Below, piece after piece: positions 3,056 through 23,002 of a stretch of 32,934 bases of DNA (positions are counted from its first letter, which is position 1; each line of letters starts with the position of its first letter). The notes beneath the pieces were generated by a model. It made no database searches, was not told the DNA's origin, and saw nothing but the letters and a program-made list of their open reading frames with translations. This stretch comes from Caldisericum sp. (lineage in GTDB: Bacteria; Caldisericota; Caldisericia; Caldisericales; Caldisericaceae): assembly GCA_020692945.1 (NCBI GenBank), contig JAIMJY010000007.1:1-32934 (forward strand), in the 5' to 3' direction. The position numbers and the translations under genes are program-made.

Positions 3056-3526
3056 TTAAGGATTTTCTTCATTGGGATTTTCATTTTTTAGTGCATCTTT
3101 TCCTTCGCTAATCAACAATTTAGTTTTGTCAACAACTGTTTCAACTCTATCTAAAAGCTTAAGTACATACTCGTCAGCATCTTCCCTTATCATGTTAGCT
3201 TCATCTTGAGCGGTTTTTATAATTTTTTGTCTTTCTACCTCAGCTTCTTTTATTATATGAGAATCAGCCAACAGTTCTTTCTCTTTTTCCTTCGCTTTAT
3301 CTATGATCTCTTGGCCTTCAAAACTAGACTGTTTGAGAATTTCTTCTGTCTTCTTTTGAACAAGAAAAGCTTCTTTAACTTCTTCAGGCAAAATCATCTC
3401 AATTTTGTTAATCGACATCAGGAAATCTTCCCTATCAATTGTTACATACTTGGAAAAAGGAACCTTCCTTGCCTCAGAAAGGAGTGTTTTGAGCTTTTCC
3501 AACTCATCAATAACAGTTGTTCCCAT
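3056..3526 (-). CDS. Coiled-coil protein, DivIVA / ATP-synthase-b-like
   Basis: 156 residues, cytosolic, no signal or membrane segment. An N-terminal region of about 45 residues (IDELEKLKTLLSEARKVPFS) is followed by a long charged helix (about 45-140) rich in Glu, Lys and Ala, strongly predicted by eye to be a coiled coil. Proteins of this type, often annotated 'ATP synthase subunit b-like' or DivIVA-like, sit next to coaD in many clostridia and thermophiles. Their role is unproven; a DivIVA-like cell-pole or division scaffold is one possibility. The ATG overlaps the coaD stop by one base (TAATG), so it is coupled to coaD. Confidence 0.6.
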   Translation of the reverse strand: MGTTVIDELEKLKTLLSEARKVPFSKYVTIDREDFLMSINKIEMILPEEVKEAFLVQKKTEEILKQSSFEGQEIIDKAKEKEKELLADSHIIKEAEVERQKIIKTAQDEANMIREDADEYVLKLLDRVETVVDKTKLLISEGKDALKNENPNEENP

Positions 3527-4011
3527 TAATGACCTCTTAATTTGTCGAGCAATTTTAATTTAACGCATTCTGACACAAAGAGAGAAACGTCACCGCCATT
3601 TATAACAATTTCTTTTATCAAACTTGAGCTTAGAAAAATTTGTTCTTTATCCCCCATTATAAAGATAGTTTCTATATTGCTTAAAAGTTCTCTATTCATG
3701 AGGGCCATTTGCAATTCGTAATCAAAATCGGATACAGTTCTTAATCCTCGCAAAACAAAATGCAAATCATTCTTCTTAAGGTAATCTGTCAAAAGGCCTT
3801 TTAAAGGTTTCACTGAAACATTCCTTAAGTTTTTCAAACTGCATCTTACAAGTTTCAATCTTTCGTCAAGTGTAAGAAAAGTGTTTTTCTCTCTTCGTTC
3901 CGCTACAAGAACGGTTATCTTATCAAAAATAAGAATTCCTCGCTTGATCAGCTCGATGTGCCCCTTTGTTATCGGATCAAAGGTTCCAGGATATATAGCA
4001 ATTTTTTCCAT
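3526..4011 (-). CDS. coaD: Phosphopantetheine adenylyltransferase
   Basis: Fourth step of coenzyme A synthesis: transfers AMP from ATP to 4'-phosphopantetheine. The 161-residue length is standard. The nucleotidyltransferase signature is at the start (IAIYPGTFDPITKGH, with the T-x-G-H motif at 15-18), R/K-rich substrate residues follow, LRGLRTVSDFDYELQMA lies mid-protein, and the C-terminal FLSSSLIKEI is the ISSS/T-like motif. No Shine-Dalgarno precedes the ATG. A -10-like TATACT ends five bases upstream, so the transcript may be leaderless (see the promoter entry). Confidence 0.95.
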   Translation of the reverse strand: MEKIAIYPGTFDPITKGHIELIKRGILIFDKITVLVAERREKNTFLTLDERLKLVRCSLKNLRNVSVKPLKGLLTDYLKKNDLHFVLRGLRTVSDFDYELQMALMNRELLSNIETIFIMGDKEQIFLSSSLIKEIVINGGDVSLFVSECVKLKLLDKLRGH

Positions 4012-4016
4012 ACTTA

Positions 4017-4045
4017 AGTATATATATTTTAATGAATGTTTGCAA
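4017..4045 (-). promoter_or_regulatory. Predicted coaD promoter, possibly leaderless
   Basis: On the minus strand TTGCAA (4045-4040), a 17-base spacer and TATACT (4022-4017) make a sigma-70-type promoter. The coaD ATG starts five bases after the -10, leaving almost no 5' UTR, and there is no Shine-Dalgarno. TTGCAA is its own reverse complement and also serves as the -35 of the divergent PASTA promoter. The -10/start region also holds the ten-base palindrome TACTTAAGTA (4011-4020). Confidence 0.55.
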
Positions 4046-4067
4046 ATTTATCACGAAAATGTAAAAT
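4040..4067 (+). promoter_or_regulatory. Predicted leaderless promoter for PASTA-rpe
   Basis: TTGCAA (4040-4045), a 16-base spacer and TAAAAT (4062-4067). The chosen ATG (4075) lies seven bases after the -10, exactly where transcription should begin. No Shine-Dalgarno is present before it, so a leaderless mRNA is predicted. The -35 box is shared with the opposing coaD promoter. Confidence 0.55.
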
Positions 4068-4074
4068 AATAAGT

Positions 4075-4773
4075 ATGAAAAAAGATAGAGCTAAGTTTTA
4101 TTTGGTACTGGTAGGTTTATTCATATTTGTTTTAGCGAGTAATGGTTGTAAAAAAGTTATAAGCGAAACTATAGTGATTGTACCTTCTGTAGAAGGACTA
4201 AAGTTGAGCGATGCTGAGAATGTACTCGCACAAACAAACTTAACGTTAGAAGTAAGTAGCTCTGAATTTAGTGATTCAGTCCAGGTCGACCATATAATTT
4301 CTCAAGATCCACTTGCGCAAAGCTCAGTAAAAAGCGGAAGCATTATAAAAGTCGTTATTAGTAATGGATCCTCTCGAGTGATTGTTCCCGATTTAGCGCA
4401 GAAAAAGTTTGATGAAGCTACAATAATCTTGAAAAATTTGGGCCTGCACATCGCTGATATTTCTGAAGTAGAAAATGATCTTCCTCCTGGCACAATTGTT
4501 TCCCAAAAACCTCTTGCAAACACGTATGTATCTCCGAATACGGGAATAAAAGTCACCGTTAGCTTAGGAATATTCATAATAATTCCAGACTTGATTGGAT
4601 TGAATATAAACGATGCAAAGGATAAAATAGAAAAAGCGGGTCTTGCATTGTACAAAACGATTGAAATGGATGTTGGACCGAATATTCCCTCAGGAATCGT
4701 TCTATACCAGTATCCGATGCCAGACCAAAAGGTAAATCAGGGTGCTCAAATTACATTGAAGGTGTCAAAATGA
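4075..4773 (+). CDS. PASTA-repeat lipoprotein-like protein (three PASTA domains)
   Basis: 232 residues. A basic start (MKKDRAKFY), a hydrophobic segment (about 8-23) and a cysteine at the end of it (ASNGCKK) suggest a lipoprotein or membrane anchor, though the lipobox is imperfect. Three consecutive PASTA domains follow (about 32-95, 99-163 and 165-232). Each opens with a VP/IP-x-x-x-G-like strand, then a helix containing the A-x-x-x-L pattern, and ends near a basic VSxG strand. PASTA domains bind peptidoglycan or beta-lactams in Ser/Thr kinases and PBPs. No kinase or transpeptidase domain is attached here. Start chosen at 4075 rather than 4036 because of the promoter position and the signal sequence. 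It overlaps rpe by 4 bp. Confidence 0.8.
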   Translation: MKKDRAKFYLVLVGLFIFVLASNGCKKVISETIVIVPSVEGLKLSDAENVLAQTNLTLEVSSSEFSDSVQVDHIISQDPLAQSSVKSGSIIKVVISNGSSRVIVPDLAQKKFDEATIILKNLGLHIADISEVENDLPPGTIVSQKPLANTYVSPNTGIKVTVSLGIFIIIPDLIGLNINDAKDKIEKAGLALYKTIEMDVGPNIPSGIVLYQYPMPDQKVNQGAQITLKVSK

Positions 4774-5435
4774 AATTTATAGTTGCCCCTTCAATTTTTT
4801 CTTCGGATTTTTTTAGGCTGAGTGAGGAAATTTCAAAAGTTGAATCAATTAAAGATTCATGGTTACATATAGACATAATGGATGGGAACTTTGTTCCTCA
4901 AATTTCTTTTGGCAGTGCTATTACAAAAACTATAAGAAAACATACCGACAAAGTTATCGACGTGCACCTAATGGTAAAAAATTTAGAAAGAGAAATAGAG
5001 TTATTCAGTGAGACGGGGGCCAACTACATCACCTTTCATTCTGAAGAAACTCACTTCCCTTTAAGAATGATTAAAAAGATTAAGAGTTATGGCATCAAGG
5101 CAGGCATTTCTATAAACCCTTTCACTAAACTTGATTATGTTGATTTTATACTTCCTTATATTGATCTTCTACTTATCATGAGTGTTGAGCCTGGTTTTTC
5201 AGGTCAAAAATTTATAACCGAGACAAAAAATAAAATAGAAAAAGCAAAATTTATTCGACGAGATAAAGGGCTCAATTTTCTCATATCGGTTGACGGAGGA
5301 GTTTGTGAGGAGAACGCCTTGCAGATTATTGAAGCTGGAGCAGATATTCTTGTAATGGGCAGCTATTTCTTTAAAAACAACTTCGAGGAAATAAAGACTT
5401 TCATAGAAACGTTAAGAAAAAAGCTAACTAAGTGA
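4770..5435 (+). CDS. rpe: Ribulose-phosphate 3-epimerase
   Basis: Interconverts ribulose-5-phosphate and xylulose-5-phosphate in the pentose phosphate pathway. 221 residues, a complete TIM barrel. Metal and catalytic residues are visible: His33 and Asp35 in LHIDIMDGNFVP, His66 in DVHLMV, and Asp175 in SVDGGV. The phosphate-loop stretch MSVEPGFSGQKF is also present. The ATG overlaps the PASTA stop (ATGA), so the two are co-translated. A PASTA gene beside rpe recalls the Firmicute prpC-prkC-rsgA-rpe order, but phosphatase, kinase and GTPase are missing here. Confidence 0.95.
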   Translation: MKFIVAPSIFSSDFFRLSEEISKVESIKDSWLHIDIMDGNFVPQISFGSAITKTIRKHTDKVIDVHLMVKNLEREIELFSETGANYITFHSEETHFPLRMIKKIKSYGIKAGISINPFTKLDYVDFILPYIDLLLIMSVEPGFSGQKFITETKNKIEKAKFIRRDKGLNFLISVDGGVCEENALQIIEAGADILVMGSYFFKNNFEEIKTFIETLRKKLTK

Positions 5436-22100: not shown

Positions 22101-22632
22101 TTGTTTTTACTCTCCTTTGAAGTGCGCTGAGGATTGGCAGCCCAAGTCCATATGTTGAAAAAGCTTCCCCTAAACCTATTGTTAATACACCCAGAAAATA
22201 TGGAACAAGTTTAAAATTTACAAAAACGTATTTGAAAGCTTCAAAACCTATTTTTCCTGAAAGTCCAGAAAGTGCTATTATATAAAAGGCAACTCCAAAT
22301 GCATTAAAAATAATTGGAGGAATAGGAGCAAGGTATTTTGATTTCGAGTGCTTCCCGATCTCCATCGTTAATAAAGCAGCAATGAACGTTAAAAATGTGC
22401 CAAGAATCATGTCAATTGGGCCAAAAGGAGAAAAAATATTTGCAAGAAAACAGCCAATTGTAAGTCCCCATATAGCTTCAGGAAAAATATATGGAAGAAC
22501 AGTTAAAGATTCAGCTATCCTAACCTGAATCGCACCAAATGATAATGGTTTAGTAAAAAAAGTAATAACAAAGTAAAGGCTTGCAATTGTTGCTGCCCTT
22601 ACAAAATATCTCAGTTTACTCTTTTTTACCAT
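22090..22632 (-). CDS. queT: QueT-family queuosine-precursor transporter (ECF S component)
   Basis: 180 residues with about five to six membrane helices. It matches the QueT family: FGAIQVRIAESLTVLPYIFP and EAIWGLTIGCFLANIFSPFG mirror its conserved 'RxxEALTxLPxxxPEA' and 'GCxxANL' features. Such S components import queuosine precursors with the shared ECF ATPases, which are not in the window. I chose the ATG at 22632 (AAAAAAGAGTAA region, overlapping the last 17 bp of the LapA gene) because the family starts near here; the 22734 start would add a non-homologous tail. No preQ1 riboswitch is visible. Confidence 0.8.
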   Translation of the reverse strand: MVKKSKLRYFVRAATIASLYFVITFFTKPLSFGAIQVRIAESLTVLPYIFPEAIWGLTIGCFLANIFSPFGPIDMILGTFLTFIAALLTMEIGKHSKSKYLAPIPPIIFNAFGVAFYIIALSGLSGKIGFEAFKYVFVNFKLVPYFLGVLTIGLGEAFSTYGLGLPILSALQRRVKTNEI

Positions 22633-23002
22633 TATCTGGCTGTTCTGGTGGCATTGATTTGGGATTAGATGCAAAACTATCAGAAATCTGCTGCTTAAGT
22701 TTCGAGAGATCATCTTGAATTTTTGCCTTCTCATTTTCCAAAGATTTTATAAATTTTTCTTTTTCATTGATCTCTCTCCTATGCTTTGTTCCGTTTCCAA
22801 TGAAAACCATTAGAGAAAAAAACCACATTATAAAAATGCCTAAAATTAGAGAAAAGAGTGCTAGTATTCCAATAGGTGTAGGTGGGATTGTCCATAATAA
22901 AAAGTTAAGCTGTGTCGTTGGCATAGTATTCTGCATAACAAAAACAAGCGAAACGACAAGAAGCAACAAAGTTACTACCAAATAAAAGCTTAATTTCTTC
23001 AT
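22616..23002 (-). CDS. LapA (DUF1049) domain membrane protein
   Basis: 128 residues. Two transmembrane helices (about 5-23 and 42-68) carry the LapA features FVMQNTMPTTQLNFLLW between them. A cytosolic coiled coil (about 75-110, EINEKEKFIKSLENEKAKI) and a disordered Pro/Asn-rich tail follow. In E. coli LapA acts with LapB in envelope homeostasis; here only general membrane or envelope function can be suggested. AAGGAGGT precedes the ATG, and a strong promoter lies upstream. First gene of the lapA-queT-amidase-nadE operon. Confidence 0.8.
   Translation of the reverse strand: MKKLSFYLVVTLLLLVVSLVFVMQNTMPTTQLNFLLWTIPPTPIGILALFSLILGIFIMWFFSLMVFIGNGTKHRREINEKEKFIKSLENEKAKIQDDLSKLKQQISDSFASNPKSMPPEQPDNGKKE

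Follow-up and report, generated by a model that had tools for sequence, protein, structure and literature searches.

A 63-bp intergenic gap in Caldisericum sp. is, with good probability, a compact bidirectional promoter built round a single palindromic −35 element, TTGCAA, that feeds two predicted leaderless promoters, one for coaD and the other for a PASTA lipoprotein gene followed by rpe. The gap lies in a stretch of 32,934 nucleotides (the window) that corresponds to contig 86 of a 1.5-Mb draft genome. TTGCAA is unchanged in all readable loci of the family Caldisericaceae, which suggests that the two genes may be wired together through one contact point.

In the mechanism proposed here, sigma region 4 of the housekeeping holoenzyme would dock on TTGCAA in either orientation, a possibility that arises because the hexamer shows TTG on both strands, and the docked polymerase would then reach either TATACT (coaD) or TAAAAT (PASTA-rpe), 16-17 bp away. 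As the −10 elements end 5-7 nt before the ATG codons, both mRNAs are expected to be leaderless, starting at or beside the ATG, with predicted starts about 64 bp apart. A polymerase loaded in one direction would hide the opposite promoter, so that the two directions could not be loaded at once; provided that both are in use, mutual exclusion is very likely on steric grounds. How much this matters would depend on promoter strength. Competition between the coaD and PASTA-rpe promoters, which the same steric argument brings with it, is plausible; more modestly, coaD and PASTA-rpe might simply be transcribed at a fixed ratio to each other. Transcription itself, the start sites, mutual exclusion and any effect on the relative expression of coaD and PASTA are what we infer from this arrangement of sequence elements.

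The coaD/PASTA gap and its conservation in Caldisericaceae

The gene for pantetheine-phosphate adenylyltransferase, coaD (3526-4011, minus strand; Pfam PF01467, CTP_transf_like; 45% identity to a match annotated coaD), runs leftward from an ATG at 4011 and heads a leftward cluster. On the other side of the gap, a lipoprotein gene with three PASTA domains (4075-4773, plus strand; three stretches matching PF03793) is followed by rpe, encoding ribulose-phosphate 3-epimerase (4770-5435, plus strand; PF00834), which adjoins the PASTA gene in all 15 family loci examined. The PASTA lipoprotein is a stand-alone protein encoded beside rpe, and Pfam reports no kinase domain in it. A start at 4036, chosen for this gene by the ORF caller, was rejected: it falls inside the promoter, is not kept in relatives and precedes the lipoprotein signal, which begins at 4075.

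The proposed common −35 element, TTGCAA, occupies positions 4040-4045 and forms the greater part of an 8-bp block, TTGCAAAT (4040-4047, plus strand), whose AAT side points towards PASTA. To the right, a 16-bp spacer leads to TAAAAT (4062-4067, plus strand), from which 7 nt (4068-4074) remain to the PASTA ATG at 4075; to the left, 17 bp lead to TATACT (4022-4017, minus strand), from which 5 nt (4012-4016) remain to the coaD ATG. This layout, pointed out in an earlier note on the sequence, was read directly and reproduced on recomputation. The same note held that both genes lack a Shine-Dalgarno (SD) sequence, and indeed no SD-like run of three or more bases occurs in the 18 nt before either ATG. 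Its remark that almost all other genes of the window differ in this respect is right in direction and slightly too strong in wording: an SD-like run of at least three was found at 25 of 34 starts, and none at the other nine, coaD and PASTA included, in a list drawn up by hand in which some starts besides these two are doubtful.

By consensus alone the site is unexceptional: promoter-like sites numbered 11 in a scan of 2.5 kb, and shuffled versions of the sequence gave 7.8 ± 2.4. Among the 43 TTGCAA words of the window, only that at 4040-4045 has TAnnnT at 15-18 bp on both sides. What lifts the site above chance is the invariance of TTGCAAAT throughout the family, while most of the gap varies.

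We searched for coaD in 61 genomes, of which 18, the window's genome included, belong to Caldisericaceae. A match was obtained in 15 of these 18, the remaining three being incomplete, and in every one of the 15 coaD and PASTA-rpe point away from each other. Compared with the CoaD protein of the window, those of the 14 relatives show 47-60% identity. When the 15 gaps are aligned, most positions vary; the −10 cores are kept, and the eight adjacent columns of TTGCAAAT, invariant in 15 of 15, form the only long invariant block. The PASTA −10 reads TAAAAT in 12 loci and TAGAAT in three, ending 6-8 nt before the ATG; that of coaD reads TATACT in 11 and TATAAT in four, ending 5-7 nt before it. Hexamers of sigma-70/sigma-A type, separated by 16 or 17 bp, are thus present in both directions at all 15 loci, as is, for both genes, a TANNNT whose end lies 5-8 nt from the start codon, always ATG, with no SD; the longest SD-like run in these loci is three bases, seen in 4 of 15 PASTA leaders.

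A single copy of TTGCAA stands for both promoters in 13 genomes representing eight genera, with spacers of 16 or 17 bp, leaders of 5-8 nt, ATG starts and a gap of 62-64 bp, a length that two leaderless promoters on one −35 element would force. In the two genomes of a ninth genus, g4, the gap measures 93-94 bp and holds two TTGCAA copies 29-30 bp apart, one per promoter and each 17 bp from its own −10; TTGCAAAT is accordingly present twice. Such a provision of a separate TTGCAA for each promoter, where the promoters have moved apart, is what a −35 role leads one to expect, and it also means that sharing is usual and not obligatory. Of the 42 coaD loci from outside the family we retrieved 15. 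All 15 lacked a PASTA match beside coaD and had no TTGCAA within 110 bp upstream, so that the arrangement is, as far as seen, specific to the family.

The earlier note had counted homologous regions without a conserved TTGCAA and −10 pair as evidence against its claim of one palindromic −35 driving two divergent leaderless promoters. TTGCAA and both −10 elements were found in 15 of 15 loci, and the claim is supported to that extent by sequence and conservation.

TTGCAA as a −35 word

The consensus of the sigma-70 −35 element is TTGACA, which starts with TTG. By logic, and not by measurement, TTGCAA is the only palindromic hexamer that offers TTG on both strands. How the word is used elsewhere was examined in G006, a complete relative from the same family, whose 1,558,103 bases were covered in stretches over the whole genome. 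Within 8-27 bp ahead of intergenic TTGCAA, TATAAT occurs 28 times: 10 times at 16 bp, 8 times at 17 bp and 0-3 times at any other single distance. In an unbiased ranking of words, TTGCAA was counted 39 times at a spacer of 16 or 17 bp before an intergenic −10, compared with 5 at control distances, and was outranked only by TTGACA (49 versus 2.25) and the one-base shift of TTGACA. Directly after TTGCAA, AA or AT follows in 28 of 39 cases with a −10 ahead and in 55 of 287 without one, a preference in agreement with the PASTA-facing end of the invariant TTGCAAAT. Such behaviour favours a −35 type of the lineage's own over a private operator.

G006 is mainly SD-led, with an SD run of at least four bases at 896 of 1461 called genes. 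TAnnnT peaks at 6 nt before the first ATG (67 cases, versus 30-40 at 4, 5, 7 and 8 nt), with further peaks at 0 nt and at 17-18 nt, and the 6-nt peak shows a minority of putatively leaderless genes. Leaderless-like starts account for 22.5% of sides in 153 divergent pairs versus 21 of 398 co-directional genes with at least 40 bp upstream, and pairs leaderless-like on both sides for 10 of 25 with a gap below 80 bp versus 3 of 123 with a gap of 80-1000 bp, all of these being approximate figures, as the start-choosing script is simple and favours such signals. Several compact divergent pairs of G006 have interdigitated promoters in gaps of 36-55 bp. A 19-bp gap between two GTG-starting ORFs (1012768-1012786), whose start calls are uncertain, holds ATTATAAT, in which a TATAAT on one strand overlaps a TATAAT on the other; this is a candidate for a −10 common to two leaderless starts.

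Promoters that serve one gene only provide a view of how the −35 word changes when it is unshared. From a list of 18 TTGCAA promoters of G006 we picked that of an rlmN-like gene, named by eye, which reads TTGCAA-16-TAAAAT-6-ATG and has no −10 on the other side. In the three readable genomes of genus g7 the spacing is unchanged, and the −35 of this gene is TTGCAA in two and TTGACA in the third, G013, which keeps TTGCAA at coaD/PASTA; within a genus, then, TTGACA can take the place of an unshared TTGCAA. Such interchange, seen in three genomes only, is consistent with the behaviour expected of −35 words. No TTGCAA was present in the 85 bp upstream of the rlmN-like loci of other genera (9 of 12 read). 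The TTGCAA of queH, tried as a drifting unshared −35, was rejected, being 14 bp from its −10 and no proper −35.

A second unshared element, the TTGACA of dinB, adjoins an operator-like palindrome; of 13 readable loci, eight in four genera retain this TTGACA and the five of genus g6 lack it. Since it can be kept though unshared, invariance alone is no proof of double duty. Upstream of the dinB-like genes in eight loci (L242-L248 and L255, L246 being that of the window's genome), a palindrome of the CGAA-N6-TTCG kind lies in the spacer between TTGACA and TATAAT or a similar −10. It takes the fuller form GAAC-N4-GTTC in L244, L246 and L248 and was not seen in the five g6 loci. We take this palindrome to resemble a LexA box.

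These observations bear on the best-surviving alternative, according to which TTGCAAAT is mainly a transcription-factor site through which coaD and PASTA-rpe are regulated together and which overlaps a −35 only secondarily. An invariant run of 8 bp in 15 of 15 loci is strong for a −35, the block occurs twice in genus g4, and at dinB, in the same family, DNA beside an operator-like palindrome has likewise been preserved in several genera. Nevertheless, apart from the −10 cores the gap holds one contiguous invariant block with no second conserved half-site of the kind an operator dyad would have (a small or monomer site would fall outside this expectation). Moreover, TTGCAA stands at −35 spacing before many other −10 elements of G006, each copy in g4 keeps 17 bp to its own −10, and at the rlmN-like gene TTGACA takes its place, all of which makes a predominantly regulatory site unlikely.

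Recurrence of two-sided TTGCAA

Seventeen of the 18 family genomes together contain 34 sites of a two-sided pattern, in which TTGCAA is flanked at 15-18 bp by a −10 on either side; 31 further genomes from the class contain 2. Read backwards, the pattern gave 2 sites versus 34; as the middle word of the reversed pattern contains CpG, AAGCTT and ATGCAT were added as control words, and neither gave a site in any of the 18 family genomes, in counts not normalised for word frequency.

The coaD/PASTA gap contributes 10 of the 34 sites, the remaining coaD/PASTA loci falling outside this stricter pattern. Mechanical inspection of the other 24 revealed ORFs on both sides, starting within 35 nt of the −10 elements, in 10 cases, one doubtful case, and no such pair in 13. 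The genes, named from their proteins by eye except for the kinase-like gene (Pfam), include a kinase-like gene and a regulator in three genomes of genus g7, both leaderless-like; divergent ECF-sigma-like and plsY-like genes in two genomes of g4 (L120, L135), both near-leaderless; lapA-like and transporter-like genes in three genomes (L121, L134, L127), SD-led; and two pth-like cases. The lapA-like gene of the window (22616-23002) is likewise SD-led. The kinase-like/regulator pair of G006 is shared by three of the four g7 genomes that have the gene, and is absent in G013 and in the five readable best matches from other genera.

In G006, no preference for two-sided use was apparent, with 3 of 163 intergenic TTGCAA (spacers 15-17) versus 3.2 under independence. 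Intergenic two-sided sites number 4 of 163 for TTGCAA versus 6 of 2640 for the 63 other palindromes together; over the whole genome, coding sequence included, the excess is small (4 of 2515 versus 15 of 21294), and ATTAAT alone reaches 4 of 909. Sharing may thus follow simply from a palindromic −35 word in combination with short gaps.

The lack of a two-sided excess over independence, together with the ease with which promoter-like matches come up in AT-rich DNA, speaks for a reading in which there is one main promoter only, the other gene being mostly transcribed from elsewhere and the second −10 incidental to the AT-rich surroundings. However, all 15 loci keep, on either side, the −10, a leader of 5-8 nt and a spacer of 16 or 17 bp, and neither coaD nor PASTA has the strong SD expected of a longer leader, which leaves this reading quite improbable. 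A chance origin, in which AT-rich DNA happened to hold two −35-like words that common ancestry alone preserved, can be dismissed almost with certainty: the 15 genomes do all come from one family, but much of the gap has diverged, the CoaD proteins are only about half identical, and the control palindromes yielded nothing in 18 genomes.

Beyond the proposed bidirectional promoter at coaD/PASTA-rpe, a wider and more tentative proposal is that Caldisericaceae possess a distinct class of promoters, whose palindromic TTGCAA −35 has been selected for sharing by two divergent, often leaderless promoters, so that the orientation of the polymerase at one sigma contact would set the ratio of two transcripts without a regulator. 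The coaD/PASTA-rpe pair would then be the most widely kept member of this class. We regard such a class as a real possibility, though not as the probable case.

Comparison with known bidirectional and leaderless promoters

Divergent promoters with overlapping elements are treated in older reviews. Searches of the openly accessible literature listed no paper on a palindromic shared −35, and hence none on a single one common to two leaderless genes throughout a family. Like coaD and PASTA, the leaderless genes described in the accessible parts of PMC3160421 and PMC12340547, where TANNNT precedes the start by about 12 bp, have a −10 a few nucleotides from the start codon and no SD; the word "divergent" is absent from the main texts of both papers, and "Caldiseric-" from that of PMC3160421.

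Two known divergent arrangements come close in other respects, as far as the accessible parts of the reports go. Pc and Pr of plasmid pLS20 are likewise overlapping divergent promoters with coinciding elements, but the −10 and −35 of each are proposed to lie on the −35 and −10 of the other, and a regulator and DNA looping are involved, whereas at coaD/PASTA a −35 lies on a −35 (PMC4207663). The divergent umuDAb and ddrR genes of Acinetobacter have adjacent −35 elements, both over one inverted repeat; there, unlike here, the repeat belongs to the site of a repressor and transcription starts have been mapped at least 30 bp before the genes, and a single palindromic −35 was not found described in the accessible part of that paper (PMC7273328).

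Known bidirectional promoters have a −10 in common, and the coaD/PASTA arrangement is a variant of these. In E. coli and Salmonella the shared −10 is near-symmetrical and the starts are separated by 7-25 bp, 18 bp being the commonest distance (Warman et al. 2021 as cited in PMC12825309 and PMC10268837, in the parts accessible), and sharing of the −10 is likewise stated in the accessible part of PMC11661796. With a shared −10 in E. coli, loss of one direction barely affects the other at basal activity, and competition appears once one direction is strengthened (PMC12825309, accessible part). As in those promoters, one element on both strands would here allow two polymerase orientations, presumed to be mutually exclusive, and give divergent RNAs; unlike them, coaD/PASTA would have its −35 in common, with separate −10 elements (4017-4022 and 4062-4067) and predicted starts about 64 bp apart, far enough for each gene to keep its own melting region. 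A conserved case centred on the −35 would extend sharing to the second sigma contact. It would also offer a natural test of how polymerase chooses its orientation, possibly without any regulator, with a built-in control in genus g4, where the same two promoters stand apart.
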